A stretch of 64,000 nt of DNA from Pseudodesulfovibrio sp. 5S69 (lineage in GTDB: Bacteria; Desulfobacterota; Desulfovibrionia; Desulfovibrionales; Desulfovibrionaceae): positions 3,157,501 through 3,221,500 of the forward strand of contig NZ_CP146609.1 of NCBI RefSeq assembly GCF_037094465.1. The letters are read 5' to 3'. The translations under genes and the position numbers were made by a program. How positions within the stretch are numbered: position 1 is the first letter of the stretch; each line of letters starts with the position of its first letter. The notes under the pieces were generated by a model. The model saw only the letters and a list, made by a program, of their open reading frames with translations, did no database searches and was not told where the DNA came from. Below, piece by piece: positions 34,862-51,340 of the stretch.

Positions 34862-35596
34862 CTAGTACGTGAAATTCCGTTCCATGATCCTCTGGTAGAC
34901 GCCGTTCTCCTTCAGGGTGTCGAGGGCGTTCTGCCATTTTCGAATGGTTTGGTCCGGGACGTCCAGGGAGAAGGCGAGCCAGGCGGCGGAGTTGCCGAAC
35001 TTGCAGTCCGTGCGCTCGAACTCCACGGGATTGAGGCCGGCCTTCTTGACCATATAGTAATAGGTACGCTCGCCCATGAGCACGAGATCCACGCGGTCCT
35101 CGACCAGTTTCCTGTAGCTGGACTCGTAGGTCGGTCCCACGTCGAGGTTGGTGAATCCCTTGGCGGCCAGAGCCTGATGGGTGTAGCCGTCCTTGCGCAC
35201 GGCGATCCGTTCGACCCGGCGCGCGTCGTTCAGGTTCTCGATCCGCAGGGACGATCCCCTATGTTTGAAGAAATAGTCCCCCTCGCCGAAGATCGGGCCG
35301 ACCCACTTGAAGAGCTTTTCCCGCTCCGGGATGCGGACAATGGCGAACAGGGCCTGCCGGGGCAGCTTCTGCGTCTGCTCATAACCACGCAGCCAGGGCG
35401 TCTCTTTCAGCGGGCTGTCGTCGCCCACGATTTTCTGGATCTCCAGGACCATCTCGGGAGCCACACCCCACAGCTTGCCCTGATCGGCATAGACCAATGG
35501 GGGATAGACAATGGCTTGCATGTTGAAATCGCCGCCAAAGGCCGCCACCGGCAGAAACAGTGTCAGGCACAGGCCCAATACGATAATTCTCTGCAC
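34862..35596 (-). CDS. Periplasmic solute-binding protein, family 3-like
   Basis: An exported protein of about 244 residues. GTG 35596 is chosen because GGAGAG lies just before it; an in-frame GTG at 35608 has no site. The signal peptide is QRIIVLGLCLTLFLPVAAFG. The mature part reads like an amino-acid-binding-type domain: GVAPEMVLEIQKIVGDDSP, YRKLVEDRVDLVLMGERTYYY, and a C-terminal helix WQNALDTLKENGVYQRIMERN. No transporter genes adjoin it, so it may serve a distant ABC system or signalling. Convergent with the tRNA gene. Confidence 0.82.
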   Translation of the reverse strand: MQRIIVLGLCLTLFLPVAAFGGDFNMQAIVYPPLVYADQGKLWGVAPEMVLEIQKIVGDDSPLKETPWLRGYEQTQKLPRQALFAIVRIPEREKLFKWVGPIFGEGDYFFKHRGSSLRIENLNDARRVERIAVRKDGYTHQALAAKGFTNLDVGPTYESSYRKLVEDRVDLVLMGERTYYYMVKKAGLNPVEFERTDCKFGNSAAWLAFSLDVPDQTIRKWQNALDTLKENGVYQRIMERNFTY

Positions 35597-35880
35597 GAAC
35601 TCTCCCACGTTGTAGCTAAACAGGTGTTCACCATATACGAGGCGTTAGGCAGTGTCCATTATCGACTGAGAACACCCTGTCGCCCCCTGGGGGGGCCGGC
35701 GCTGTCCCGATCTGAATCGCACAGCATAGCGCCTCCACTCCAGACCCGCTCCGGAACTTTTTTATGAAAATCAATCATATCAGACGCAAGCAGGGACGAC
35801 TTTTTGATGACATCCCGCAGGGAATGGGCTAAATCCGAAAATAAGATTCAATGTTGCATCAAAACCGGCAGGAGTGCGGC

Positions 35881-37587
35881 GTGGCCGAGACCAATCCCGT
35901 GGACATCCCCTTTCATTGCATCCTGAACCACCTGAACGTAGCGGCCCTGGCCGCGGACTCTTCCGGGCTCATCGCCTATGCCACGCCGTGCGCGGAGCAG
36001 ACCTTCGGGTTCGGGCCGGGGCGCATGCACGGCCTGCCCATGGCCGAGGTCATGCCCGAGGCATTCGTCAACGGGCAGACGGCCGCGAACCTGGAGATGC
36101 CCGACGGCACCCTGAACGCGGTCTCGCGCAGCCCCATCGTCATGAACGGCGAGACCGTGGGCAGCCTGCTCACCCTCCAACCGGAACCGGCCCCGGATCG
36201 GGTGGCGCGGACCGCGACCTACCGCACCCTGGCCGAACACATGGAGGCGGTCTTCAACGCGTCCAGCGACGGCATCTGGCTGACCGACGGTCACGGCGTG
36301 GTCCTGAACATCAACAACGCCTCGGAGAGCCTCAACTCCATCTCGGCGGACGAGGTCATCGGCAGGCCCGTGGCCACCCTGGTGGAGAACGGGACCATCG
36401 ACCGGTCCGCCACCCTGGAGGTGCTCCGCAAGAAACGACGGGTCTCGGTCCTGCAGGAGGTCACCCGCACCGGGCGCCAGCTCATTGTCACCGGCACGCC
36501 GACCTTTGATGCGGACGGCAACATCCGCCTGGTGGTCCTGAACGAGCGGGACATCACCGACCTGAACGAGCTGCGAACCACCCTGGCCCAGACCCGCAAG
36601 GCCAAGGAAAAGGCCGAGGCCGAGTTGACCGGCATGTCCCTCATGGAACTCAAGAAGAGCCATGTGGTGGCCGAGAGCCCGGCCATGCGCAAGGCCATGG
36701 CCACAGCCCAGAAGCTGGCCCAGTTCGAGACCTCGGAGATCCTGCTCATGGGCGACTCCGGCACGGGCAAGGGGCTGCTGGCCAAATTCATCCACGACAC
36801 CAGCCCCCGGCGGGGCAAGCCGTTCATCCAGGTCAACTGCGCGACCCTGCCCGAGACCCTGTTCGAGGCCGAGCTGTTCGGTTACGAGAAGGGGGCCTTC
36901 ACCGGCGCGTCCGAACAGGGCAAGTCCGGCCTGTTCGAGCTGGCCTCCGGCGGGACCTTCTTCCTGGACGAGGTGGGCGAGATCCCCTTGGATATGCAGG
37001 CCAAGCTGCTCAACTGCCTGGACGACCACATGTACTACCCGCTGGGCGCGAGCAAGCCCAAGCGCATGGACTGCATCATCGTGGCCGCCACCAACCGCGA
37101 CTTGGAGGCCCAGGTGCGCAAGCAGGCCTTCCGCCGCGACCTGCTCTACCGCCTGAACACCTTCACCGTGCGCATCCCGCCCCTCAGGAAGCGGCCCGAG
37201 GACGTGTTCGAACTGATCAACCACTACCTGCGGCAATTCAACGCCGCCTTCCGCACGAACAAACGCATCGGCCCGGCGGGCATGAAGCTGCTCCAGTCGT
37301 ACCCGTTCCCGGGCAACGTCCGCGAACTCATCGGCATCATCAAGAAGGCCGTGGTCATCTGCGAGGACGACCTGCTCGACGACTACCTGCGGGAGCTCTT
37401 CGACAACACCGAAGACGCCGTGATGGAAAACGGCACCCTGCCCGAAGAAGTGGCCCGGCTGGAGCGCCGCATGCTCCGCCAGGCCATGGAGGCGTGCTCC
37501 AACACCCGCGAGATGGCCGGATTCCTCGGCGTCAGCCAGCCCACCGTGGTGCGCAAGATGCAACGGTACAAGCTGAACAATTCCTGA
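35881..37587 (+). CDS. PAS-domain sigma-54-dependent activator of the polyamine operon
   Basis: A bacterial enhancer-binding protein of about 568 residues. GTG 35881 is preferred (AGGAG six bases upstream); ATG 35851 has no site. Two PAS domains (about 10-95 and 115-235) come first and probably sense a ligand. The AAA+ domain follows with Walker A GDSGTGKG, the sigma-54 contact loop GAFTGA in ELFGYEKGAFTGASEQG, and Walker B GGTFFLDEVGEIP. The C-terminal helix-turn-helix (MAGFLGVSQPTVVRKMQRYKL) is TyrR/Fis-like. No receiver domain, so control is by small molecule. Its stop codon lies inside the first of three palindromes ahead of the operon it presumably activates. Confidence 0.93.
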   Translation: MAETNPVDIPFHCILNHLNVAALAADSSGLIAYATPCAEQTFGFGPGRMHGLPMAEVMPEAFVNGQTAANLEMPDGTLNAVSRSPIVMNGETVGSLLTLQPEPAPDRVARTATYRTLAEHMEAVFNASSDGIWLTDGHGVVLNINNASESLNSISADEVIGRPVATLVENGTIDRSATLEVLRKKRRVSVLQEVTRTGRQLIVTGTPTFDADGNIRLVVLNERDITDLNELRTTLAQTRKAKEKAEAELTGMSLMELKKSHVVAESPAMRKAMATAQKLAQFETSEILLMGDSGTGKGLLAKFIHDTSPRRGKPFIQVNCATLPETLFEAELFGYEKGAFTGASEQGKSGLFELASGGTFFLDEVGEIPLDMQAKLLNCLDDHMYYPLGASKPKRMDCIIVAATNRDLEAQVRKQAFRRDLLYRLNTFTVRIPPLRKRPEDVFELINHYLRQFNAAFRTNKRIGPAGMKLLQSYPFPGNVRELIGIIKKAVVICEDDLLDDYLRELFDNTEDAVMENGTLPEEVARLERRMLRQAMEACSNTREMAGFLGVSQPTVVRKMQRYKLNNS

Positions 37588-37602
37588 TTCGTTTTTGAAT
37601 CA
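37585..37602. promoter_or_regulatory. Upstream activator palindrome, site 1
   Basis: TGATTCGTTTTTGAATCA: TGATT-N8-AATCA, overlapping the stop codon of the activator gene. The half-site TGAATCA is perfect; the left half has one mismatch to its complement. See sites 2 and 3. Confidence 0.65.
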
Positions 37603-37763
37603 ATCCGATTCGCGAAATAGCATATTTAACAGTATTGTCATTTTCTCCACTGTATTAACGGAGGTAAAGACGGTGTCTGACTTTTTTGCAACGCGAAGGA
37701 CATTTTTACCGCCACATCATCCGATCGCTGGAACCATCAGAACATTATTGTTAATTTTTGATT

Positions 37764-37781
37764 TGATTTAATTATGAATCA
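37764..37781. promoter_or_regulatory. Upstream activator palindrome, site 2
   Basis: TGATTTAATTATGAATCA, same TGATT-N8-AATCA layout as sites 1 and 3 with identical right half TGAATCA, about 125 bp upstream of the GG of the proposed sigma-54 element. Confidence 0.7.
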
Positions 37782-37821
37782 TATTTTTATCACCTGTTTT
37801 CAATAGGTTAGTAAAATCGTG

Positions 37822-37839
37822 TGATTTATTTTTGAATCA
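37822..37839. promoter_or_regulatory. Upstream activator palindrome, site 3
   Basis: TGATTTATTTTTGAATCA, differing from site 2 at only two central positions and lying 58 bp further on (centre to centre), about 67 bp upstream of the sigma-54 element. Spacing and distance suit an enhancer-binding protein. Confidence 0.7.
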
Positions 37840-37904
37840 AGAAGCAAACGGACGGGCCGTGTATTCTGCATATAACCATTTGTAATAAATTGATTATTGC
37901 AACT

Positions 37905-37920
37905 CGGACCGGCGTTTGCT
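37905..37920 (+). promoter_or_regulatory. Candidate sigma-54 promoter of the polyamine operon
   Basis: GG at 37906-37907, ten bases, then GC at 37918-37919 in the context TTTGCT, as in the -24/-12 consensus (TGGC-N7-TTGCW). The -24 half is CGGACC, weaker than consensus. It sits 55 bp before the gabT ATG. No good sigma-70 pair competes. The rest of the 387-bp gap 37588-37974 is AT-rich and gene-free. Confidence 0.55.
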
Positions 37921-37974
37921 TTATGAGAGACGGTTTTCGACTTCAACTCTTACAATATATTTGGTGGATACATC

Positions 37975-39276
37975 ATGACCAACAAGGAACTGCAACAGAG
38001 AAGAGAGGCGGCCGTCCCCAGGGGGGTCTCCAATGCCGGCCCCATTTTCGCGGCCGGCGCCCAAGGCGCGACGGTCACCGACGTGGAAGGCAAAGAGTTC
38101 ATAGATTTCGCGGGCGGTATCGGCGTGAACAACGTGGGCCACTGCCATCCCAAGGTGGTCGAGGCCGTGCGCGAGCAGGCGGGCAAGCTCCTGCATTCCT
38201 GCTACCATGTCTTTCAATATGAGGGATACGTGGCCCTGGCCGAGAAGCTCAACGCCCTGACCCCAGGCGACCACGCCAAGAAGACCGTACTGGTCAACTC
38301 AGGGTCCGAGGCCGTGGAGAACGCGGTCAAGGTGGCCCGCCGGGCCACAGGACGACCGGCCGTCGTGGCCTCGGCCTCCGGTTTCCACGGCCGCACCCTG
38401 CTGGCCTCGACCCTGACCGCCAAGGTCATGCCCTACAAGGCCGGGTTCGGGCCCTACGCCCCCGAGGTCTACCACATCCCCTACGCCTACTGTTACCGCT
38501 GCCCCGTTGGCCGCTCCTATCCCGGGTGCAAGATGGAATGCGCCGAACTGCTGAAGAAGAGCTTCGTGGACATGGTCAACCCCGAGAGCGTGGCCGCCGT
38601 GATCCTGGAGCCCGTGGCCGGCGAAGGCGGCTTCGTGGTCCCGCCCAAAGAATATTTTCCGCGCATCAAGGAGATCTGCGACGAATTCGGCATCCTGCTG
38701 ATCATCGACGAGGTCCAGTCCGGCATCTGCCGCACCGGCACCCTGTTCGCCATCGAGCAGTGGGACGTAATCCCGGACCTGCTGACCTCGGCCAAATCCC
38801 TGGGCGGCGGCACGGTCATCTCGGCCTGCACCGGCCGGGCCGAACTCATGGACGCGCCCCAGGTGGGCGGCCTGGGCGGCACCTACGGCGGCAACCCGGT
38901 GAGCTGCGCAGCGGCCCTGGCCGTGCTCGACGTGGTCGAGAGCGAGAACCTGGTCGCCAAGTCGCAGACCCTGGGCGCCAAGGTCCGCGCCGCCTTCGAG
39001 GATCTGGCCGGGAAGTATGCGTGCATCGGCGACGTGCGCGGCCTGGGCTCCATGCTGGCCATGGAGCTGGTCCACGACAGGACGGTCAAAACCCCGGCCC
39101 CGGACATCGCCAAGGCCCTGGTCGCCAAGTGCCGCGAGGATGGCCTGATCATCCTGTCCTGCGGCCACTCCGGCAACGTCATCCGTACGCTCATGCCCCT
39201 GGTCATCACCGATGCCGAACTGGAAAAGGGACTGTCCGTCCTCGAAGCGGCCTTTGCCGAAGTGACCAAGGGGTAA
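37975..39276 (+). CDS. gabT: 4-aminobutyrate (GABA) aminotransferase
   Basis: A 433-residue PLP enzyme of class III, moving the amino group of GABA to 2-oxoglutarate to give succinate semialdehyde and glutamate. Seen: NSGSEAVENAVKVAR (phosphate cup), GFHGRT, EPVAGEGGF, the cofactor Asp in LLIIDEVQSG (245), and the Schiff-base lysine in LTSAKSLGGG (274). GabT rather than a putrescine enzyme is inferred from sequence style and from a second, PatA-like aminotransferase in the operon. First gene after the sigma-54 element; only 6 bp separate it from the second aor. Confidence 0.9.
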   Translation: MTNKELQQRREAAVPRGVSNAGPIFAAGAQGATVTDVEGKEFIDFAGGIGVNNVGHCHPKVVEAVREQAGKLLHSCYHVFQYEGYVALAEKLNALTPGDHAKKTVLVNSGSEAVENAVKVARRATGRPAVVASASGFHGRTLLASTLTAKVMPYKAGFGPYAPEVYHIPYAYCYRCPVGRSYPGCKMECAELLKKSFVDMVNPESVAAVILEPVAGEGGFVVPPKEYFPRIKEICDEFGILLIIDEVQSGICRTGTLFAIEQWDVIPDLLTSAKSLGGGTVISACTGRAELMDAPQVGGLGGTYGGNPVSCAAALAVLDVVESENLVAKSQTLGAKVRAAFEDLAGKYACIGDVRGLGSMLAMELVHDRTVKTPAPDIAKALVAKCREDGLIILSCGHSGNVIRTLMPLVITDAELEKGLSVLEAAFAEVTKG

Positions 39277-39282
39277 CATTCG

Positions 39283-41055
39283 GTGCACGGCATTCACGGA
39301 CGCATACTCTTCATCGATGTCTCCGAGCGGACGTTCTCCATCGAGCCGCTCGGGGACACCGGCCTGCCCCTTCCCGGCGGCAAGGCGTTGGGTACGCGCC
39401 TGCTTCTCGAACACAACCCGGCCGGGGTAGACCCGCTCTCTCCCGACAACCGGATCGTCATCGCCACGGGCCCGTGCAGCGGCACGCCGACCTGGGGCTC
39501 CAGCCGGTACGGCGTCTTCTCCAAGTCGCCGCAGACCGGCTTCTACGCGGAATCCTACTCCGGGGGCAGAACCCCGGAGGCCATCGACCGGGCCGGTTTC
39601 GACGCCATCGTCGTAACCGGCGCGGCCGACGCGCTGACCGTCCTGTCCATCCACCCGGACGGTTGCGATTTTCACGAGGCCCCGCAGCTCAAAGGGCTCG
39701 AAACCTATGCCGCCGAGGACGCCCTGATCCAGGACTATGCCCCCAGGGGCGAGGGCTACGGCCGCCCCGGGGCCATGGTCATCGGCCCGGCGGGCGAAAA
39801 TCTGGTGGCCTTCTCGGTCATCGAGAACGACTACTGGCGCAGCGCCGGGCGTTGCGGCCTGGGCGCGGTACTCGGCGCGAAGAGGATCAAGGGGCTGGTC
39901 TTTGCCGGGGACCGCAAGCGCCGGGTGGCCGACCCCGAGGGATTGAAGGCCTTTGCCAAGGCATTCCGGACCGCCAACGGCGACTCCCCGGCGGTCAAGG
40001 CGTACCGGGCCCGGGGCACCACCCAGATGGTCGCCCTGATGAACACCGTGGGCGCCTTTCCGAGCCGCTACTGGTCGGCCGGAAGTTGCGACCACTGGGA
40101 GCGCATCAGCGGCGACGTCTTCCACGAACAGCACGAGGTCACGCCTCACGCCTGCCTGAAGTGCTTCATGGCCTGCGGCCGCAAGGCGCGCATCAAGAGC
40201 GGCCCGCACAAGGGCCTGACCATCGAGGGTCCGGAGTACGAGACCATCTACGCCTTCGGCGGGCTGTGCATGGTCCGCAACATCGACGAGATCGCCCACC
40301 TGAACGACCTCTGCGACCGTCTCGGCCTGGACACCATCTCGGCGGGCAACCTCTGCGCCATGGTCGCCGAGGCCTCCAGCCAAGGCCGCCTGGACGCCCC
40401 CCTGACCTACGGCGACGCGGCCACCATCTCCGCCCTGCTGGAACAGATCGCGAACCGCGAGGGGCTGGGCGACGTCCTGGCCGACGGCATCGTCAAGGGC
40501 GCGGCCAGCCTGGGCCTGTCCGACATGGCCGTGCACGTCAAGGGCCTGGAGCCCGCCGGATACGACCCCCGCGTGCTCAAGGGCATGGGGCTGACCTACG
40601 GGACCTCCCCGCGCGGGGCCTGCCACCTGCGGACCACCTTCTACAAGGCGGAACTGTCCGGGATGATCTCCTCGGACGCCGTGGAGGGCAAGGCGGACCT
40701 GCTCATAGATTTCGAGGACAGGCTGGTCGTGTTCGACTGTCTGATCCTGTGCCGCTTCTACCGCGACATGTACGACTGGGCCACCCTGGTCCGTCTACTC
40801 GCGCTGATCACCGGAGAATCCTGGGACGAGACCTCCCTGCGCCGGGCCGCGTCCCGCGTGGTGGACGACACCCGGCGGTTCAACGTCCGCGAGGGACTGA
40901 CCCCGGACGACGACCGACTGCCCAGAAAGCTCCACGAAGCCCTGCCCACCGGGCAGGTCATAACCCGGGAGGAGTACGCGCTCCTTCTCAATGAATACTA
41001 TCGCCTGCGCGGCTGGGATGAATCGGGCGTACCGCCTGTCCCGGCTGCCGAATAG
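39283..41055 (+). CDS. aor: Aldehyde:ferredoxin oxidoreductase (second copy), likely acting on succinate semialdehyde
   Basis: A 590-residue AOR-family protein starting at GTG 39283. Features: PGGKALGTRLLLEH, GPCSGTPTWGSSRYGVFSKSP, and cluster ligands CLKCFMACGRKAR (about 288) with GACHLRT near 446. It is divergent from the first copy (short local identities only), so it is not a recent duplicate. Its place directly after gabT, with no NAD(P)-dependent succinate semialdehyde dehydrogenase in the operon, suggests it oxidises succinate semialdehyde (or 4-aminobutyraldehyde) with ferredoxin, using tungsten. The family is firm; the substrate is an inference. Confidence 0.9.
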   Translation: MHGIHGRILFIDVSERTFSIEPLGDTGLPLPGGKALGTRLLLEHNPAGVDPLSPDNRIVIATGPCSGTPTWGSSRYGVFSKSPQTGFYAESYSGGRTPEAIDRAGFDAIVVTGAADALTVLSIHPDGCDFHEAPQLKGLETYAAEDALIQDYAPRGEGYGRPGAMVIGPAGENLVAFSVIENDYWRSAGRCGLGAVLGAKRIKGLVFAGDRKRRVADPEGLKAFAKAFRTANGDSPAVKAYRARGTTQMVALMNTVGAFPSRYWSAGSCDHWERISGDVFHEQHEVTPHACLKCFMACGRKARIKSGPHKGLTIEGPEYETIYAFGGLCMVRNIDEIAHLNDLCDRLGLDTISAGNLCAMVAEASSQGRLDAPLTYGDAATISALLEQIANREGLGDVLADGIVKGAASLGLSDMAVHVKGLEPAGYDPRVLKGMGLTYGTSPRGACHLRTTFYKAELSGMISSDAVEGKADLLIDFEDRLVVFDCLILCRFYRDMYDWATLVRLLALITGESWDETSLRRAASRVVDDTRRFNVREGLTPDDDRLPRKLHEALPTGQVITREEYALLLNEYYRLRGWDESGVPPVPAAE

Positions 41056-41065
41056 GAGGAAAGAT

Positions 41066-42088
41066 ATGACCCTTGAAGCGTATGCCGTCCACAAGAGCTA
41101 CGGCGACGTCCAGGCCCTGAAGAACGTCGACCTGACCGTCCAGAAGGGCGAGCTGTTCACCCTGCTCGGCCCGTCCGGCTGCGGCAAGACCACCCTGCTG
41201 CGGATTATCGCCGGACTGGAACAGGCGGACTCGGGATCGGTCTTCCTCAACGGCCTGCCCATCACCCAGAAGCCCGCCAACGAACGTCCGGTGAACACGG
41301 TCTTCCAGAGCTACGCGCTGTTCCCGCACATGACCAACGCGGACAACGTGGCCTTCGGCCTGCGCTCCCAGAAGATCCCGGAGGGCGACATCCGGACCAG
41401 AGTGAACAAGATTCTCGAAATGCTCGAACTGACCGGTTTCAAGGACCGCTACCCGGACCAGTTGTCCGGCGGCCAGCGACAACGCGTGGCCATGGCCCGC
41501 GCCCTGGTCTGCGAGCCCGAACTGCTCCTGCTGGACGAGCCCATGTCGGCCCTGGACGCCAAGCTGCGCACCCAGTTGCAGGTTCAGCTCAGACGGTTGC
41601 AGCAACAGTTGAACAAGACCTTCATCCTGGTCACCCACGACCAGGACGAGGCCCTGACCGTATCCGACCGCATCGCGGTCATGAAGGACGGCGAGGTCCT
41701 GCAGCACGGCTCGCCCCAACAGATCTACGACCGCCCCAACTGCCGCTTCGTGGCCGAATTCATCGGCACGGCCAACATCCTCGAAGCCGAGCGGCGCAAC
41801 GACCTGATCGTCACCCACGCGGGCAGGCTGGTCGTGCCCTCCCCGCCCCAGTGGAAGCGCGGCGCCCTGGTCATCCGGCCCGAGGGCATCGTCCTGCGCG
41901 ACCAGGAGCCCGAGACCAACGGCGTCCTGGCTACGGTCACCGAAACCTTCTACCGCGGCAACTTCCTGGACATCACCCTGGACCCGGCCGGCCTGCGCAT
42001 GCGCTGCGCCCCGCACAAAAAACTCCAGGTGGGCGACAAGGTCTGGGTCGAACTGCTCAAGGACGCACTGGTGGCCATCGATGACTAG
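41066..42088 (+). CDS. potA: Spermidine/putrescine ABC transporter ATPase
   Basis: A 340-residue ATPase. The start at 41066 follows AGGAGGA. Motifs: Walker [11 protein letters not shown]-loop [11 protein letters not shown], signature [15 protein letters not shown], Walker [13 protein letters not shown]-loop THDQDEA; a TOBE domain ends the protein ([12 protein letters not shown]). It overlaps potB by 8 bp. The full potABCD set argues for polyamine import. Confidence 0.94.
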
Positions 42089-43001
42089 CGAGCAACAGAA
42101 CGACACCCGCATCTGGTACGGCGAGCTGACCACCCGCTCGGCGCTCAGGCGGCGCGGCCTGCTCCAGGTCTCGCCCGGCCTGTTCTGGATCCTCATTTTC
42201 CTGACCGTGCCCGCCCTGGCGCTCATCGCCCTGTCCTTCGCCACACGCGGCGGCTACGGCGAGATCGAATGGATATTCACCTTCGAAAATTTCTCCCGGC
42301 TGGCCGGGTACGGCATGTTCGGCTGGAGCCCGGACTACCTGATCATCCTGGCCCGCTCCCTGTGGGTGGCCTTCGTGACCACCACGATCTGCACGGCGCT
42401 CGCCTTCCCCCTGGCCTTCTTCATCGCGCGCAAGCCCAAGTCCACCCGGTACGTCTGGCTGACCCTGGTGATCATCCCGTTCTGGACCAACCTGGTCATC
42501 CGCACCTACGCCTGGCAGTTGGTCCTCTCCCCGGACCTGCCCATCGCCAAGTTCGCGGCCGTGCTCGGGCTGATCCCGGCGGGCAGTCCGCTCTACCCGT
42601 CCGAGTTCGCCGTGTACCTGGGCATGATCTCCGCCTTCCTGCCCTTCGTGGTCCTGCCGCTTTACTCCAGCGTCGAGAAACTCGACTGGTCCCTGGTGGA
42701 GGCGGCCTACGACCTCTACTCCAACCGGCGGCGGGTGTTCATGCAGGCCGTCCTGCCCCAGACCCTGCCCGGTCTGTCCGTAGGGGCCATCCTGACCTTT
42801 GTCCCGGCCATGGGCATGTTCCTCATCCCGGACTTCCTGGGCGGGGCCAAGTACATGCTGGTCGGCAACCTGATCCAGCAGCAGTTCGGCAAGAGCCGCG
42901 ACTGGCCCTTCGGCGCGGCGGTTTCCCTGGCCCTGATGGTCCTGACCCTCGTCGGCCTGTTCGTCTTCCGCCGGAAGGGCGAAAAAATGGAGGTGGTCTA
43001 G
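42081..43001 (+). CDS. potB: Spermidine/putrescine ABC transporter permease PotB
   Basis: A 306-residue permease with six membrane helices. PotB-type features include IIPFWTNLVIRTYAW and the EAA loop EAAYDLYSNRRRVFMQAVLPQ (about 213-233). It overlaps potA and is separated from potC by 1 bp. Confidence 0.94.
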   Translation: MTSEQQNDTRIWYGELTTRSALRRRGLLQVSPGLFWILIFLTVPALALIALSFATRGGYGEIEWIFTFENFSRLAGYGMFGWSPDYLIILARSLWVAFVTTTICTALAFPLAFFIARKPKSTRYVWLTLVIIPFWTNLVIRTYAWQLVLSPDLPIAKFAAVLGLIPAGSPLYPSEFAVYLGMISAFLPFVVLPLYSSVEKLDWSLVEAAYDLYSNRRRVFMQAVLPQTLPGLSVGAILTFVPAMGMFLIPDFLGGAKYMLVGNLIQQQFGKSRDWPFGAAVSLALMVLTLVGLFVFRRKGEKMEVV

Positions 43002-43002
43002 G

Positions 43003-43824
43003 ATGCAGACCCGACGCAAGCCGATCCTGATCCCGGCCCTGGCCCTGGGCACCCTGGCCTTCCTGTACATCCCGCTCATGGCCGTGGCCTCGTTCTCGGT
43101 GAACAACTCCCGCTTCGGCCTGACCTGGCACGGCTTCACCTGGAAATGGTACCTGGAACTCTTCCGGAACGAGCAGATCCTCGAAGCCGTGGGCAACACC
43201 CTGTTCCTGGGCCTGGTCTCCACGGTCATCGCCACGGTGGTGGGCACGGCCCTGGCCATCGGCATGAGCCGGTTCCCGTGGTCCAAGAAGACCTCGGCCT
43301 TCTTCGAATTCAACCTGTACATGCCGGTCATCACCCCGGAGATCGTGTTCGCGGGCGCGCTGGTCATCGCGTTTGCCTCCCTGCGCTACTTCTCCTCGGC
43401 GTTCGAGCCCGGCATGCTGAACATGATCATCGGCCACGTGACCTTCCAGGTGGCCTTCGTGGCCCTGGTGGTCCGCTCGCGCCTGGCGGCCTTCAACAAC
43501 GAGATCGAGGAGGCCTCCCACGACCTCTATGCCTCCAGTTGGTACACCCTGCGCAAGGTCATCCTGCCCATGCTCACGCCGGGCATCGTGTCCGGGGCCA
43601 TGCTCGCCTTCACCCTGTCGCTGGACGACTTCATCATCAGCTTCTTCACGGCCGGCCCCACCTCGGTGACCCTGCCGCTCTACATATACGCGGAAGTGCA
43701 TCGCGGCATCACGCCGAAGATCCACGCCCTGTCCACGGTCGGTCTGCTGGTGACCATCATACTGGTCATCGCCTCGCAAAAAATATCAAACAGTTTCAAT
43801 GAAAAGGAGAGAGATGATGCGTAA
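43003..43824 (+). CDS. potC: Spermidine/putrescine ABC transporter permease PotC
   Basis: A 273-residue permease, second channel subunit. It has six membrane helices and the EAA loop EEASHDLYASSWYTLRKVILP, followed by the PotC-like SLDDFIISFFTAGP. Its end overlaps the potD start. Confidence 0.94.
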   Translation: MQTRRKPILIPALALGTLAFLYIPLMAVASFSVNNSRFGLTWHGFTWKWYLELFRNEQILEAVGNTLFLGLVSTVIATVVGTALAIGMSRFPWSKKTSAFFEFNLYMPVITPEIVFAGALVIAFASLRYFSSAFEPGMLNMIIGHVTFQVAFVALVVRSRLAAFNNEIEEASHDLYASSWYTLRKVILPMLTPGIVSGAMLAFTLSLDDFIISFFTAGPTSVTLPLYIYAEVHRGITPKIHALSTVGLLVTIILVIASQKISNSFNEKERDDA

Positions 43825-44857
43825 ACTGCTGCTGGCCATCCTGATGGTCCTGGTCATGGTGCCGTCCGCATTCGCGGCGGAGGAAATGCGCCTGCTCATC
43901 TGGAGCGAATACATGCCCGAGGATTTCCTGACGGATTTCGAGCACGACACGGGCATCAAGGTGCGCGTGGAGTACTATGAATCCATGGAGGAGATGGTCG
44001 CCAAGCTCCAGGCGGGCGGCAAGAACCAGTATGACGTGGTCGTCCCGTCCGACTACATCATCCCGGCCATGATCAAACTGAACCTGCTCAAGGAGCTGGA
44101 CCACTCCAAGCTGCCCAACCTGAAGAACCTCGAAGCGACCTTCATCAACCCCGCCTGGGACAACGGCAACAAGTACACCGTGGCCTACCAGTGGGGCACC
44201 CTGGGCATGATGTACCGCAAGGACAAACTCAAGGACTTCGACGGCTCCTGGTCGGTCATGTTCGACCCGGCCAAGCGCCAGGGCCCGTTCATCTTCATCG
44301 ACTCCATCCGCGAAATGCTCGGCTGCGCACAGTGCGCCATGGGCATGGACGTGAACACCACCAACAAGACGGAACTCAAGCAGCTCCTCGACAAAATGCT
44401 TGAGGCCAAGAAATCCGACTACTTCGCCGGATTCGACGTGGGCACCGGCGGCCGCTCCAAGGTCGTGGCCGGCACCGCCGTGGCCGCCATCGTCTACAAC
44501 GGCGACGCCCTGCGCGCCGTGGCCGACAACCCGGACACCTGCGGATTCGTGAACCCCAAGGAAGGGACCATCGGCTGGGTGGACAACATGTCCATCCCCA
44601 TCGGCGCCCCGAACCCGGACCTTGCGTACACCTTCATCAACTGGGTGCTCGAGCCCAAGGTCGGCGCCAAGCTGTCCAACTGGACCCAGTACGCCACCCC
44701 GAACGAGGCGGCCTACCCGTACATCACCCCCGAGGACTTCAAGAACCCGGCCATCTACCCGGAGAAGGCCTACATGTCCAAGATCCAATTCATCAAGGAC
44801 CTGGGCACCGACAACAAGATGTACGACCAGATCTGGACCATGGTAAAGACCCGTTAA
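43817..44857 (+). CDS. potD: Spermidine/putrescine-binding periplasmic protein PotD
   Basis: A 346-residue exported binding protein. ATG 43817 is chosen for its spacing to GGAGAG; ATG 43814 and 43799 are in frame. The signal peptide RKLLLAILMVLVMVPSAFA is followed by the typical start LLIWSEYMPEDFLTDFE, YDVVVPSDYIIPAMIKLNLL, YQWGTLGMMYRKDKL and IGWVDNMSIPIGAPNPD, a PotD/PotF acidic-pocket segment. An 11-bp hairpin follows the stop, as often seen after binding-protein genes. Confidence 0.94.
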   Translation: MRKLLLAILMVLVMVPSAFAAEEMRLLIWSEYMPEDFLTDFEHDTGIKVRVEYYESMEEMVAKLQAGGKNQYDVVVPSDYIIPAMIKLNLLKELDHSKLPNLKNLEATFINPAWDNGNKYTVAYQWGTLGMMYRKDKLKDFDGSWSVMFDPAKRQGPFIFIDSIREMLGCAQCAMGMDVNTTNKTELKQLLDKMLEAKKSDYFAGFDVGTGGRSKVVAGTAVAAIVYNGDALRAVADNPDTCGFVNPKEGTIGWVDNMSIPIGAPNPDLAYTFINWVLEPKVGAKLSNWTQYATPNEAAYPYITPEDFKNPAIYPEKAYMSKIQFIKDLGTDNKMYDQIWTMVKTR

Positions 44858-44906: not shown

Positions 44907-46460
44907 ATGCTAGACCATTATTTGCTGACAAACGGAAACATCATCACCATGGACGGCCGGGAATCCCGCGCCCAGGCCATGGCCGTAGAGAACGGCCGCA
45001 TCCTCCGGGTCGGCTCGAACCAAGACATGGCCGACCTCGCCGAGGCGGGCTGGCCCGTCACCGATCTGGAAGGCCGGACCGTGCTGCCCGGCTTCATCGA
45101 CACCCACCAGCACCTCGGGCTGACCGGCCAGGTCCTGAACGGCATCGACTTCCAGGGGACCAAATCCCTGCAAACCGTGTTCGACAAGGTCGGGGAAACG
45201 GCCCAGTCCGCCGCGCCCGGTGCCTGGGTCCTCGGCTACACCCTGAACGATTTCTCGCTCAAAGAAAAACGGATGCCCCTCAAGGAGGAGCTGGACGCGG
45301 TCTGCGCCGACCATCCGGTCATGATCGTGCACTCCTCCTGGCACATGTGCGCCCTGAACTCCCTGGCCCTTGAGATTTTATCGCCGCCCGCCGACCTGCC
45401 GGGCATGGACCTCAAGCCGGACGGCGAACCCACCGGCGTGGTCCGCGACCCCGGCGCGCCCGATTTCATCTTCCCGGCCGTGTCCTCGCGCACCCCGGAG
45501 GAGGTCAAGCTGACGAGCTTCCGCAAGGCATGCGAGGCGGCGTTGAAACAGGGCATCACCACCCTGCATTGCCTGGAGGGCGGCGGCTTCGGCCCCGGCG
45601 ACACCCGCATCGTCCATGACAACCTGGACAAGCTCCCGGTCAACGTGGTCCTCTGGAACCAGGTCATGGACGTGGACGAGACCGTGGGCATGGGGCTCAC
45701 GCGCATCGGCGGGTGCATCTGCGCGGACGGGGCCATCGACGCCTACACCGCGGCCCTGTTCGAACCGTACTGCGACCAGCCCGGCAACTGCGGCACCCTG
45801 AACTTCACCCAGGAGGAGATGGACGAGTTCGTCCTGAATTCACACAAGGCCGGGCTCCAGGTGGCCGTGCACTGCGAGACCGACAAGGCCATCGAACAGG
45901 TCCTGTCCGCCATGGAGAAGGCCATCGCGGCCTTTCCGCGCGACGACCACCGCCACCGCATCGAGCACTGCGAGATCCCGACAAGGGATCAGGTGGAGCG
46001 TATGGGCCGGGCAAAAATCCTTGCGGGCATGCAGCCCGCCTTCATCCATTACCTGGTTGACATGGAAGACTACGAGAAGCGGTTCGGCTGGGACCGGCTG
46101 CGCTGGATGCACCCCTACCGGACCATGCTCGACAACGGCGTGATCATGACCGGCGGATCGGACTGCCCGGTCACTCCGCACGGTCCGCTCGTCGGCATCC
46201 AGACCGCCGTGCTCCACCCCATCAAGGAGGAGCGCCTGACCCCCATGGAAGCCATCCGCATGTTTACCGTCGACGCCGCCTACAGCGCCTTTGACGAGGC
46301 CAACCGCGGCAGCATCGAACCGGACAAGATCGCCGACCTGGTGATTCTGAGCGCCGACCCGACCGAGGTTCCCCCCGAGTCCATCCGCGAGATCAAGATC
46401 GTCAAGACCATCGTGGAGGGCAAACCGGTGGAGGACCCGCGAGACGGTCCCGCGGCCTAG
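44907..46460 (+). CDS. Amidohydrolase-3 family (YtcJ-like) metal-dependent hydrolase
   Basis: A 517-residue enzyme with the amidohydrolase fold: N-terminal DGRESRAQAMAVENGRILRVG, metal ligands in GFIDTHQHLG, an AVHCETDKAIEQVL histidine, HRHRIEHCE and the Asp of MTGGSDCPVTP; a C-terminal IEPDKIADLVILSADP strand closes the composite barrel. The exact substrate is unknown; in this operon hydrolysis of an amide or cyclic polyamine derivative, or of an acylated polyamine, is conceivable. The family usually acts on amide or ester bonds. Confidence 0.87.
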   Translation: MLDHYLLTNGNIITMDGRESRAQAMAVENGRILRVGSNQDMADLAEAGWPVTDLEGRTVLPGFIDTHQHLGLTGQVLNGIDFQGTKSLQTVFDKVGETAQSAAPGAWVLGYTLNDFSLKEKRMPLKEELDAVCADHPVMIVHSSWHMCALNSLALEILSPPADLPGMDLKPDGEPTGVVRDPGAPDFIFPAVSSRTPEEVKLTSFRKACEAALKQGITTLHCLEGGGFGPGDTRIVHDNLDKLPVNVVLWNQVMDVDETVGMGLTRIGGCICADGAIDAYTAALFEPYCDQPGNCGTLNFTQEEMDEFVLNSHKAGLQVAVHCETDKAIEQVLSAMEKAIAAFPRDDHRHRIEHCEIPTRDQVERMGRAKILAGMQPAFIHYLVDMEDYEKRFGWDRLRWMHPYRTMLDNGVIMTGGSDCPVTPHGPLVGIQTAVLHPIKEERLTPMEAIRMFTVDAAYSAFDEANRGSIEPDKIADLVILSADPTEVPPESIREIKIVKTIVEGKPVEDPRDGPAA

Positions 46461-46518: not shown

Positions 46519-47874
46519 ATGACCCGCAACATCGACGAAGCGTTTAAGGAAGCAATCGAATTCATTGATATTATTACGAAGCCTGTGGGCACGGTTTCCC
46601 TTGAGGAACGGCGCAAGATCGCCACCGAGACCGTGGAGAACTTCCGCGACTACATCAACAAGGGCTTTCTGGAGTACCGCAAGTCCGTGACCGAGGCGGG
46701 CGAATTCGCCGTGACCGAGTGGATGGGCCAGGGGTCCATCCTCAAGGACGCCCTGGACCGCGAGTTCATCGACATCCTCGGCGGGTTCGGCCTGTACAGC
46801 TACGGCATCCGCCACCCCAAGATCGTGGAGGCGGTCAAGGCCCAACTCGACCGCTCGCCCCAGTACTCCCAGGAGATGCTCGACCCCCTGCGCGCCAAGC
46901 TCGCCCGGGTCATCGCCAAGCTGACCCCCGGCGACATCCAGTACGGCTTCTTCGCCAACTCCGGCACCGAAGCCGTGGAAGGGGCCATGAAGCTGGCCAA
47001 GTTCTACACCGGAAAGAAGGGCTTCATCTCCATGCTCAAGGGCTTCCACGGCAAGACCCTCGGCTCCCTGTCCCTGATGGGCAAGAACGACTACCGCGCC
47101 CCGCTCCTGCCCCTGCTTGAAGGCATGCGCCACGTGCCCTTCGGTGACGTGGCGGCCGTCGAGCGCGAATTGAAGTACGCGGCCGCCGTGGGCGACGACA
47201 TCGCCGCCGTGGTGGCCGAGCCCATCCAGGGCGAGGCCGGCGCCATCGTGCCGCCGGACGATTTCTGGCCCGGCCTGCGCGAGGTCTGCGACAAGTACGG
47301 CGTGCTGCTCATCGCGGACGAAGTCCAGACCGGCTTCGGCCGCACGGGCGAGATCTTCGGCGTGGACCACTGGGACGTGGCCCCGGACATCATGTGCTTC
47401 GGCAAGGCGCTCGGCGGCGGCGTGGTGCCCATGTCCGGCTTCTTCTCCACCCCCAAGATATGGGAGGTCATGGAGCCCAACCCGTTCATGCACACCACCA
47501 CCACGGGCGGCAACCCCATCGCCTGCGCCTCGGCCCTGGCCGCCATCACGGTCATGCACGAGGAAAACCTGCCCGCCCAGGCCGCCGAAAAGGGCGAATA
47601 CGTGAAGAAACGGTTGCAGGAGCTGTCCGAGCGGCACCCCGGCATCCTGGACAAGGTCACCGGCAAGGGGTTGCTCATCGGCATGCACTTTGTGGACGAC
47701 GAGATCGGCTACCACGTGGCGTCGGGCCTGTTCGCGCGCGGCGTGATCACGGCCGGAACCCTGACCAACGCCCGGTGCATCCGCTTCGAGCCCGCCTTGA
47801 ACATCCCCATGGAACTGCTTGACGAGGCCCTGAACAAAATGGAAGACGTCTTTAAATCGCTGCCCAGCAGCTAA
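46519..47874 (+). CDS. patA: Putrescine aminotransferase
   Basis: A 451-residue class III PLP enzyme close in layout to E. coli PatA (YgjG), which turns putrescine into 4-aminobutanal. The extended N-terminus (EERRKIATETVENFRDYINKG) is typical of PatA and not of GabT. Cofactor residues: NSGTEAVEGAMKLAKFYTGK, GFHGKTLGSLS, EPIQGEAGAIVPP, IADEVQTGFGRTG (Asp 267) and the lysine in CFGKALGGG (296). GGAG precedes the ATG. 11 bp separate it from the aldehyde dehydrogenase. Confidence 0.92.
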   Translation: MTRNIDEAFKEAIEFIDIITKPVGTVSLEERRKIATETVENFRDYINKGFLEYRKSVTEAGEFAVTEWMGQGSILKDALDREFIDILGGFGLYSYGIRHPKIVEAVKAQLDRSPQYSQEMLDPLRAKLARVIAKLTPGDIQYGFFANSGTEAVEGAMKLAKFYTGKKGFISMLKGFHGKTLGSLSLMGKNDYRAPLLPLLEGMRHVPFGDVAAVERELKYAAAVGDDIAAVVAEPIQGEAGAIVPPDDFWPGLREVCDKYGVLLIADEVQTGFGRTGEIFGVDHWDVAPDIMCFGKALGGGVVPMSGFFSTPKIWEVMEPNPFMHTTTTGGNPIACASALAAITVMHEENLPAQAAEKGEYVKKRLQELSERHPGILDKVTGKGLLIGMHFVDDEIGYHVASGLFARGVITAGTLTNARCIRFEPALNIPMELLDEALNKMEDVFKSLPSS

Positions 47875-47885
47875 GGAGGATTCCC

Positions 47886-49328
47886 ATGAGCTCGACAGAC
47901 ATGAAGCTTTGGATCAACGGCCAATGGACCGACGCCGCCGATGGCGGCGTAATGGAAGTGGAGAATCCCGCAACCGGCGAAACGGTCGCCACCGTGGCCA
48001 AGGCCGGGGAAAAGGACGTGCTCAAGGCCGTGGCCGCGGCCAAGACCGCCTTTGACGACGGCCGCTGGTCCGGGCTGACTCCGGCCGAGCGCTCAAGGTG
48101 CCTGTGGAAGCTGGCCGACCTGCTGGAGAGCCGCATGGAGGAATTCGCCCGGGTCGAGTCCGAGGACACCGGCAAGCCCTACGAATTCCTCAGCCTGGGT
48201 GCGGACCTGCCGTTCTGCATCGACAACCTGCGCTTCTTCGCCGCCGCCGCGCGCGACACCGGCGGCCACCACGCGGGCGAGTTCGCTCCGGGCTACACCT
48301 CCATCTACCGCCGCGACCCGGTGGGCCCGGTGGGCCAGATCGCCCCGTGGAACTACCCCCTGCTCATGGGCGTGTGGAAGCTCGGCCCGTCCCTGGCCGC
48401 AGGCTGCACCGCCGTGCTCAAGCCCGCCAGCCTGACCCCGCGCACCTCGCTCATGCTCGGCGAGATGACCGCCGAGGCGGGCATCCCGGACGGCGTGGTC
48501 AACGTTGTCGCGGGAAGCGTCGGGCACATCCTGACCAGCCACCCGGACATCCGCATGGTCTCCCTGACCGGCGCAACCGAGACCGGCAAATCGGTCATGA
48601 AGAGCTGCGCCGACACGGTCAAGCGCGTGCACCTGGAGCTGGGCGGCAAAGCCCCGTGCCTGGTCTTCAGCGACGCGGACATCGACCTGGTGGCCGAGAA
48701 ACTGTCCCTGGCCGCCTTCTGCAATTCCGGCCAGGACTGCACCGCCGCGACCCGCATCATCTGCCACAAGTCCATCGAAAAGCAGGTCTGCAACGTCATG
48801 GCCGAGGCCATGAAGAAGGTCGTGGTCGGCGATCCCTTCGATTCCGCGACCATGATGGGCTCGATGATCTCCGGCCGCCACCTGGACATGGTCTCCGGCT
48901 TCGTGGAGCGCGCCCGCGCCGACGGGGCCACCGTGCTCTGCGGCGGGCAGAAGATCGATAGACCCGGCCACTTCTACGAGCCCACGGTCATCACCGACGT
49001 GCGCCAGGACTCCGAGATCGTCCAGCAGGAGGTTTTCGGCCCGGTCATCACCATCCAGACCTTCGACGACGAACCCCAGGCCATCAAGATGGGCAACGAC
49101 GTGGTCTTCGGCCTGGCGTCGTCCGTGTTCACCCGCGACGTGGCCCGGACCATGCGCGTGTCCAAGGCGCTGGAATTCGGCACCGTGTGGGTCAACGACC
49201 ACCTGCCCCTGGCCTCCGAGACCCCGCACGGCGGGTTCAAGCAGTCCGGTTTCGGCAAGGACCTGTCCGCCGAGGCCGTGGGCGACTACCTGGTGACCAA
49301 GCACGTGATGATCAACACCGGCGCCTAG
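47886..49328 (+). CDS. Aldehyde dehydrogenase, probably 4-aminobutyraldehyde dehydrogenase
   Basis: A 480-residue NAD(P)-dependent aldehyde dehydrogenase. The catalytic pair is Glu 251 in LELGGKAP and Cys 285 in NSGQDCTA; the cofactor site is IAPWNYPLLMGVWKLGPSLAAG (148-169) and SLTGATETGKSV. It resembles the betaine aldehyde/aminobutyraldehyde branch (PatD/YdcW, PuuC). Next to patA, the expected step is 4-aminobutanal to GABA. Action on succinate semialdehyde too cannot be excluded. Confidence 0.88.
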   Translation: MSSTDMKLWINGQWTDAADGGVMEVENPATGETVATVAKAGEKDVLKAVAAAKTAFDDGRWSGLTPAERSRCLWKLADLLESRMEEFARVESEDTGKPYEFLSLGADLPFCIDNLRFFAAAARDTGGHHAGEFAPGYTSIYRRDPVGPVGQIAPWNYPLLMGVWKLGPSLAAGCTAVLKPASLTPRTSLMLGEMTAEAGIPDGVVNVVAGSVGHILTSHPDIRMVSLTGATETGKSVMKSCADTVKRVHLELGGKAPCLVFSDADIDLVAEKLSLAAFCNSGQDCTAATRIICHKSIEKQVCNVMAEAMKKVVVGDPFDSATMMGSMISGRHLDMVSGFVERARADGATVLCGGQKIDRPGHFYEPTVITDVRQDSEIVQQEVFGPVITIQTFDDEPQAIKMGNDVVFGLASSVFTRDVARTMRVSKALEFGTVWVNDHLPLASETPHGGFKQSGFGKDLSAEAVGDYLVTKHVMINTGA

Positions 49329-49378: not shown

Positions 49379-50449
49379 ATGGCGAACACCCCCGTTACCC
49401 CCGTCCGCGTCCCGGTCCGTGCACCGGCCTGCGACGGGCTGTACATGCCCGGCGAATGGGCCGAGCACGAGGCCACCTGGATGATCTGGCCCTGCAAGCC
49501 GTCGGCCTGGCCTTTCGGCCTGGAAAAACCCCGGCTCGCCTATGCCGAGGTGGCCAAGGCCATCAGCCGGTTCGAGCCGGTCTACATGATGTGCCGCCCC
49601 GAGCTCATGGACCAAGCCAAAGCCCTGTGCGGCGACGCCGTGACCCTGGTGCCCATGGACACCCGCGACTCCTGGGCACGCGACTCGGCCCCGACCTTCG
49701 TCGTCGACGGCAAGGGCGGCGTGGCCGGCGTGGACTGGGTCTTCAACGACTGGGGCCACATCGCCCGCTACGAGGGCAAATACGACGAGCCCATGGCCCA
49801 GGCCGTGCTCGAACACCTGTCCATGCGCCGCTACGCCGCGCCCTGCATCATCGAGGGCGGCGGCATCCACGCGGACGGCGAGGGTACCCTGCTGACCACC
49901 GAACAGGTCCAGTTCGACCCCCGGCGCAACGCGGGCTTCTCGAAAAAGGACTTCGAGGACCTCTTCGCCGCCTACCTGGGCACGGAAAAGGTCGTCTGGC
50001 TCGGCAACGGGCTGGAGGACGACGAGACCAACGGGCACGTGGACATCCTGGCCTGCTTCGCCCGCCCCGGCGTGGTCATGGTCCACGACTGCACCGACCC
50101 GGACGACGCCAACCACAAGGTCTCGCAGGACGCCATCCAGCGCCTTGAGTCCACCACGGACGCGCGTGGTCGGTCCTTCGAGATCATCCGCATGCCCCAA
50201 CCTGCGCCGCGCTACAACGGCGACTGGCGCATGGACCTGAGCTACATCAACTTCTACATCGCCAACCGGGGCATCGTCATGTCCTCCTTCGACGACCCCA
50301 TGGACGCGACGGCGTACAAGCTGATGTGCGAGGCCTTCCCCGACCGCGAGGTGATCCAGCTCCCGTGCCTGGACATCTTCGCCGGGGGCGGCGGCATCCA
50401 CTGCATTACCCAGCAGCAGCCCAAGGGCGCTCCGCTGCCGGTATTTTAG
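49379..50449 (+). CDS. aguA: Agmatine deiminase
   Basis: A 356-residue guanidino-group-modifying enzyme that turns agmatine into N-carbamoylputrescine and ammonia. Catalytic features: DTRDSWARDSAP (about 94-105), EGGGIHADGEGTLL, the His in NGHVDILACF (220) and nucleophile Cys 342 in GGGGIHCITQQQP. ATG 49379 gives the family's usual length. A small hairpin, GCCTGCC/GGCAGGC (49352-49368), lies just upstream and could influence initiation, since the ribosome-binding site is weak. Confidence 0.95.
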   Translation: MANTPVTPVRVPVRAPACDGLYMPGEWAEHEATWMIWPCKPSAWPFGLEKPRLAYAEVAKAISRFEPVYMMCRPELMDQAKALCGDAVTLVPMDTRDSWARDSAPTFVVDGKGGVAGVDWVFNDWGHIARYEGKYDEPMAQAVLEHLSMRRYAAPCIIEGGGIHADGEGTLLTTEQVQFDPRRNAGFSKKDFEDLFAAYLGTEKVVWLGNGLEDDETNGHVDILACFARPGVVMVHDCTDPDDANHKVSQDAIQRLESTTDARGRSFEIIRMPQPAPRYNGDWRMDLSYINFYIANRGIVMSSFDDPMDATAYKLMCEAFPDREVIQLPCLDIFAGGGGIHCITQQQPKGAPLPVF

Positions 50450-50458
50450 GAGCAAGAC

Positions 50459-51340
<882 letters not shown>

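Follow-up and report, generated by a model that had tools for sequence, protein, structure and literature searches.

A candidate sigma-54 enhancer and promoter between a PAS-domain activator gene and a gabT operon in Pseudodesulfovibrio sp. 5S69

The stretch of DNA analysed here (the window) comprises 64,000 nt, positions 3,157,501-3,221,500 of the one-contig 4.16-Mb genome of Pseudodesulfovibrio sp. 5S69. Within it, the gene of a sigma-54 activator with PAS sensor domains is followed by three 18-bp palindromes (sites 1 to 3), a -24/-12 promoter element and an operon that opens with gabT, encoding 4-aminobutyrate (GABA) transaminase. The palindromes very likely act as the enhancer in a local sigma-54 circuit, driven by the neighbouring activator and devoted to GABA/polyamine breakdown. 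By sequence evidence this circuit is very probably real and conserved, yet it is a further example of a well-known type of switch; new here are a weaker palindrome ahead of the activator gene (site 0), the position of site 1 on the activator stop codon, and an element resembling a binding site of integration host factor (IHF) that lies past site 3.

Palindromic sites and their conservation

The three palindromes were found at exactly the places given in an earlier, sequence-only reading of this DNA, and the 58 bp that it gave between sites 2 and 3 agrees as well. The frame it had proposed, TGATT-N8-AATCA, has only these three matches in the window at up to one mismatch, but the full repeat unit is longer: across 140 sites it is TGATTCA-N4-TGAATCA, with a free, A+T-rich middle. 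The triple palindrome is not a chance occurrence: of 20,000 dinucleotide shuffles of the A+T-rich stretch of 390 nt, 19,935 contained no match, 65 contained one and none contained two, and the exact pattern TGATTYR-N4-TGAATCA has three matches in the 4.16-Mb genome, all at this locus. Shuffling the 390-nt stretch is a fairer test than shuffling the whole window, for which 0.62 matches are expected and three were reached in 2 of 100 shuffles. Relaxing the search to two mismatches from TGATTCA-N4-TGAATCA adds three places in the genome, namely site 0 and two elsewhere; a wider regulon was considered for these two and rejected, as chance suffices to account for them.

Homologues of the activator were chosen by protein alone (E <= 1e-125), which yielded 53 genes in 50 of the 348 genomes of the order; 52 loci from 13 genera, the window included, were read, and the 53rd gene (G046, 47%) was left out. 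Sites were scored over their 14 arm positions, with a threshold of 11/14 for counting and 12/14 for the permutation test. At least two sites lie behind the activator stop codon in 51 of the 52 loci and at least three in 35. At the higher threshold 124 sequence windows matched, against a maximum of 3 and a mean of 0.155 for 200 permuted-arm palindromes. Site 1 starts exactly on the TGA stop codon of the activator gene in 26 loci, and some site falls between -20 and +60 of that codon in 41. The distance between sites 2 and 3 is 57-58 bp in 27 loci, 44-61 bp in most of the others and 325-326 bp in two. The start of gabT follows 314-752 nt past the activator stop in 50 loci; of the two without gabT next, one reaches a contig end and the other carries potABC. 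Conservation of the motif upstream of orthologous operons was the comparison that the sequence-only reading had named as its own refutation test, and it did not refute the proposed circuit.

A sample of 395 genomes from the phylum, outside the order, supplied eight further genes in seven genomes. Six of these eight keep two or three sites followed by GG-N10-GC. By eye, the frame after the sites resembles a class III aminotransferase in five of the six, and the sixth (L131) showed no long frame. Distant Bacillus-type homologues, of about 35% identity, differ: at 12/14 no site of this class was present in 28 of their 29 loci, with one isolated match (L034), and gabT was not found near them in the 18 of 29 loci searched.

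Co-occurrence was assessed in a set of 60 genomes, that of 5S69 included. The exact motif is present in 9 of the 11 genomes whose activator scores 530 bits or more, a line set after the list was seen, versus 6 of the 49 others (Fisher p 1.5e-5); with the activator defined at E <= 1e-100, the figures are 9 of 14 and 6 of 46. Every exact match in the nine genomes with both motif and activator sits at this locus, and in the remaining two activator genomes (G020 and G022) the sites deviate at one to three positions. At E <= 1e-120, gabT was detected in 12 of the 60 genomes, and 11 of these 12 also have an activator of this kind. Because of the co-occurrence of the activator with the motif and with gabT, all three tend to be gained and lost together.

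The activator protein

The start codon of the activator gene is probably GTG 35881 instead of ATG 35851, given an AGGAG 6 nt ahead and the 568-aa length of the homologues P0006-P0008; other close homologues are annotated at 562-595 aa. The protein is 94% identical to a Pseudodesulfovibrio sp. protein and 83% identical to one of Pseudodesulfovibrio indicus. The domain architecture outlined in the sequence-only reading held in all its parts. The sigma-54 AAA+ domain (PF00158, 208.1 bits) contains an exact GAFTGA that is invariant in 49 aligned sequences, no match to the Response_reg receiver family was obtained, and HTH_50 (PF18024, 40.9 bits, cut-off 27) and HTH_8 match the C terminus; HTH_50 is the TyrR-type helix-turn-helix. 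As to the plural PAS sensors, one passes Pfam at about residues 129-235 of a 578-aa reading, and residues 1-115 of the 568-aa reading give a weak PAS match, a piece that scores above a PAS cut-off in all four homologues tried and whose strands and helices follow a PAS-like order in a structure model (mean predicted local distance difference test 78.6, predicted template modelling score 0.45). When known structures were searched by sequence and by fold, the whole protein gave only hits dominated by its AAA+ part, and the first domain gave none of use.

The combination of a GAFTGA-bearing AAA+ domain, a sensor without a receiver and, as read from sequence in 46 of 52 loci, a -24/-12 element behind the sites is that of a one-component sigma-54 enhancer-binding protein, and the C-terminal HTH_50 together with 18-bp palindromes of the form 7-N4-7 is that expected of a TyrR-type DNA-binding end. 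The protein scores below the cut-offs of two named families: the TyrR equivalog NF008085 gave 235.3 bits (cut-off 576), and PrdR, the proline reductase regulator and best NCBIfam match, 358.9 bits (cut-off 795). No ACT domain was matched by Pfam in the activator.

Paralogues in other genomes bear on the question of what this DNA-binding end reads. Two of them (L013 and L014) have NQ in the recognition helix and three palindromes of the TGATGCA type directly behind the gene, whereas the recognition helix of the main class has SQ (SQPT, SQPS, SQAT or SQST). The covariation of NQ/SQ with the arm fits a helix that would read the arm, in two cases, and L013 and L014, with L018 by eye, may represent a sister circuit with another arm. 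A search for paired palindromes at eight paralogue loci found them in these two; it overlooked the known weaker sites of L015, and absence at the other five says little. The palindromes of L013 and L014 precede a permease-like gene by eye, and a single TGATGCA-type palindrome was seen by eye at L018. In all likelihood the adjacent activator binds the palindromes of the main class. One further genome (G055, locus L029) carries a pair of these activators some 10 kb from each other, one before gabT and the other before potABC, with three sites each.

Operon promoter and IHF-like element

The GG-N10-GC element reported at 37906 in the sequence-only reading was located there, and it agrees with 9 of the 12 positions of the -24/-12 consensus. 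A promoter was called where GG-N10-GC lies 72-94 bp past a site, which is so in 46 of the 52 loci; the distance statistics refer to these 46, the six others having been dropped. From site 3 to the GG the distance is 80-85 bp in 31 loci, 90-94 bp in 14 and 72 bp in one. When the 52 activators are placed on a maximum-likelihood tree, with the 72-bp locus counted in the 80-85 class, three changes between spacing classes are needed; the two classes form a natural experiment, within the order, on the phasing of bend and promoter. The genome encodes rpoN and five genes of the HU/IHF family, and it is highly likely that the operon promoter depends on sigma-54.

Between site 3 and the promoter lies a conserved element whose columns stand out from the remaining spacer in 23 representatives. 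It is found 29-34 nt past site 3 in 38 of the 46 loci, and in those 38 its distance to the GG is either 31-34 (25 loci) or 41-43 (13 loci). The element is locked to the enhancer, with the extra turn on its promoter side, because its offset from site 3 is constant while its distance to the GG varies. A first test of this offset covered 32 loci and a later one 46; the pattern was derived from some of the spacers that were later scored, and the argument is the constant offset, not the score. On the - strand the element reads TTATTTCA-N4-GTTA, near to, and not identical with, the Escherichia coli IHF consensus. In this genome it overlaps a perfect match to WATCAANNNNTTR at 37883-37895 (-). The classical IHF consensus was tried on the spacers and rejected as a description of the element, being perfect in 1 of 32 (0.21 expected) and within one mismatch in 10 of 32 (3.94 expected), so that the element is termed IHF-like only. 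IHF-dependent activation is known in Desulfovibrio vulgaris (PMC3897727). An IHF bend at the conserved element is somewhat favoured.

Gene content of the operon and likely signal

The coordinates of the genes and elements of the locus are collected in Table 1. All five gabT products tested, that of the window and four others, pass TIGR00700. The operon of the window would encode a route from agmatine through N-carbamoylputrescine, putrescine, aminobutyraldehyde, GABA and succinic semialdehyde to succinate, with the aldehyde oxidoreductase as the presumed last enzyme. The presence of aor inside a putrescine/GABA operon suggests that this last step yields reduced ferredoxin.

Table 1. Genes and DNA elements of the activator-gabT locus
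Feature	Sequence	Position in window	Strand	Evidence and remarks
Possible sigma-70-like promoter of activator gene	TTGATG, 18 nt, GCTAAA	35804..35833	+	By eye; block conserved in close orthologues
Site 0, weaker palindrome	AGATTCAATGTTGCATCA	35844..35861	no strand	12/14 arm positions; possible autoregulatory operator
Activator gene, PAS-PAS-AAA+(GAFTGA)-TyrR-type helix-turn-helix, 568 aa		35881..37587	+	Pfam, structure model; probable GTG start
Site 1	TGATTCGTTTTTGAATCA	37585..37602	no strand	First TGA is activator stop codon
Site 2	TGATTTAATTATGAATCA	37764..37781	no strand	
Site 3	TGATTTATTTTTGAATCA	37822..37839	no strand	
IHF-like element	TAAC-N4-TGAAATAA	37873..37888	-	Resembles an IHF site on the - strand; column conservation and constant offset
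-24/-12 element	CGGACCGGCGTTTGCT	37905..37920	+	GG 37906-37907, GC 37918-37919; predicted start near 37931
gabT, 4-aminobutyrate transaminase		37975..39276	+	TIGR00700, 546.5 bits (cut-off 506.65)
aor, aldehyde ferredoxin oxidoreductase family		39283..41055	+	PF01314, PF02730
potA, potB, potC, potD, polyamine-type ATP-binding cassette transporter		41066..44857	+	Best NCBIfam matches below their cut-offs
Amidohydrolase family 3 protein		44907..46460	+	PF07969
patA, putrescine aminotransferase		46519..47874	+	NF008570, 637.6 bits (cut-off 612)
patD, aminobutyraldehyde dehydrogenase		47886..49328	+	NF010000, 650.4 bits (cut-off 615)
aguA, agmatine deiminase family		49379..50449	+	PF04371; TIGR03380, 339.1 bits (below cut-off 381.8)
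aguB, N-carbamoylputrescine amidase		50459..51340	+	TIGR03381, 449.1 bits (cut-off 410.25)

Operon content was read over up to 9 kb per locus, mostly about 6 kb. Over this range potABC was seen in 14 of the 52 loci; 34 of the 38 loci without it have weak ATPase matches only, and these are liv-type transporter genes in L026 (annotated in full) and in L088 and L091 (annotated in part). GABA or succinic semialdehyde is preferred as the signal, because GABA transaminase is the constant target and the transporters vary, and by a narrow balance one of these two is what the activator would sense. The same circuit could instead answer to a polyamine, putrescine or agmatine, as the presence of potABCD, patA, patD, aguA and aguB in this operon might suggest; this is distinctly less likely, since potABC occurs in so few loci while the sites and gabT stay constant, and GabR of Bacillus thuringiensis, likewise a PAS-containing sigma-54 activator of gabT, is reported to respond to GABA and succinic semialdehyde (PMC4279683). 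The activator that the sequence-only reading assigned to polyamine/GABA catabolism, with a small molecule as its signal, is supported as such, and the balance among candidate signals tilts to the GABA side.

Control of the activator gene

Site 0 is present in all seven of the closest orthologues, the window included, and at 12/14 it was not seen in the other 45 of the 52 loci, some of which have little upstream DNA in the stretches read. With the GTG start, it falls just behind the possible -35/-10 pair of Table 1, a pair that the consensus scan did not list. Autorepression of the activator through site 0 in this species group is a possibility to which we give slightly less than even weight. 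The right arm of site 0, TGCATCA, is also the arm behind the paralogue L013 of another genome, and the site could serve an activator of the TGATGCA class rather than autoregulation; C is found at that arm position in 17 of the 140 main-class sites, however, and exact TGATGCR-N4-TGCATCA does not occur in this genome, which makes this explanation unlikely. It is equally speculative that site 0 and the stop-codon site 1 bracket the activator gene so that one looped complex would silence its transcription and launch the operon. In such a complex the IHF-like element, which is fixed to site 3 and whose distance to the promoter differs between lineages by roughly a helical turn, might set the geometry of the loop, a suggestion of the same low standing. 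Divergent from the activator gene, a family 3 solute-binding protein is encoded at 34865-35608 (-).

Proposed mechanism and remaining alternatives

In the mechanism proposed, a dimer of the activator would bind TGATTCA-N4-TGAATCA at three sites, one of them on its own stop codon. The PAS region would sense GABA or succinic semialdehyde, or else a closely related compound, whereupon the activator would assemble and reach the sigma-54 polymerase via a bend at the conserved IHF-like element. ATP hydrolysis by the activator would then open the promoter at 37906-37919, turning on gabT and the genes that lead from agmatine and putrescine to succinate, and in this species group the activator might damp its own gene through the weaker site 0. 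The sequence-only reading had called the circuit complete; computation bears out the sites with their spacing and conservation, the match to a promoter, and the linkage to the activator gene and to gabT, and the word itself is too strong.

Several observations weigh against this mechanism as a general description. The loci are related, and the counts are not independent. Five loci have two sites only, 245-247 bp apart, and one (G098) has a single 13/14 site, with 10/14 and 9/14 at the places of sites 2 and 3. Six of the 52 lack a promoter as defined above: G241 stops at a contig edge, and G020, G121, G122 and G126 have a GG 81-83 bp past the last site with GG, GA, GA and GT, respectively, as the -12 dinucleotide in place of GC; the sixth is G098. 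In 8 of 46 loci the IHF-like element is not where it normally lies, and the E. coli IHF consensus is perfect in just one of the 32 loci scored for it. Outside the order, two of the eight loci show one weak site each: that of L130 precedes an aminotransferase-like frame by eye, and L137 lies ahead of what resembles an ornithine carbamoyltransferase, again by eye; L137 is not counted as the same circuit. The distances from site to GG in the outside loci are 89, 91, 91, 95, 105 and 107 bp; strict phasing is not general, because these do not fit the two spacing classes.

Other explanations of the palindromes fare worse than the enhancer reading. They might be operators of a regulator other than the adjacent activator, and a single exact match does occur in 6 of the 49 genomes that fall short of the 530-bit line. 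The pattern read backwards as a control is present in 4 of the 60 genomes, however, which places single matches near background, and the motif accompanies the activator across 13 genera within the order and at six of the eight genes outside it; such a regulator is very improbable. To about the same degree we doubt that a sigma-70 promoter drives the operon with the sites as repressor operators, although TyrR-type proteins can repress: a consensus scan listed no sigma-70-like match on the + strand between the activator gene and gabT, GG-N10-GC lies 72-94 bp past a site in 46 of 52 loci, and GAFTGA is intact. Least probable of all is that the repeats act at the RNA level, forming hairpins or a terminator that ends the activator gene, since, although the repeats are all inverted and site 1 sits on the stop codon, the arms are A+T-rich and conserved in sequence beyond what pairing requires (140 sites), a terminator scan of 35500-38100 gave none on the + strand and one - strand match outside the stretch, and Rfam gave no match over the same range.

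Comparison with known systems

Close in layout is GcsR of Pseudomonas aeruginosa, a TyrR-like sigma-54 activator encoded beside its operon, with an RpoN site, an amino-acid catabolic target and three 18-bp sites whose 7-bp arms flank N4 (PMC4894688). The GcsR arms are TGTAACG-N4-CGTTCCG, its N terminus combines ACT and PAS, its effector is glycine and its target differs (PMC4894688); TyrR likewise has an ACT-PAS N terminus (PMC4894688). The activator described here has PAS-PAS instead, with TGATTCA arms, gabT as target and site 1 at the regulator stop codon.

GabR of B. thuringiensis is similarly a one-component PAS-containing sigma-54 activator with gabT adjacent (PMC4279683), and an adjacent gabT as target is found here by position (50 of 52 loci). 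GabR is described as having one PAS domain and 21-bp inverted repeats within a 96-bp footprint, and as leaving its own promoter unbound (PMC4279683), and by this description it appears to differ from the present system, with its three separate 18-bp sites, IHF-like element and site 0.

Among sulfate reducers, one-component circuits of D. vulgaris such as DVU0569 with ald share the arrangement of activator upstream of target, conserved site and sigma-54 promoter (PMC4641369). Table 1 of that study lists 37 D. vulgaris activators and names no GABA or polyamine function, and the words "polyamine" and "putrescine" do not appear in the main text (PMC4641369). The IHF-dependent orp promoters of D. 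vulgaris also place a bend site between activator sites and -24/-12 element; there IHF was demonstrated by mutation and gel shift (PMC3897727), whereas the element here is a conserved IHF-like sequence.

A literature search outside subscription papers and RegPrecise found neither this motif nor a regulator of this kind described for Desulfovibrionales. The description "apparently undescribed" given in the sequence-only reading stands to that extent, but two close functional analogues, GcsR and B. thuringiensis GabR, are in the literature. The present analysis supplies a candidate binding motif, target and promoter for widely conserved sigma-54 activators that the sources consulted name by domain only, and it makes the use of GABA and polyamines in sulfate reducers testable.

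Two further genes lie downstream in the window. A radical SAM/SPASM protein is encoded at 51529-52902 (-) by a gene that converges on the operon end, and a second sigma-54 activator, with a receiver, four PAS stretches, AAA+ and HTH_8, is encoded at 53492-56362 (-).

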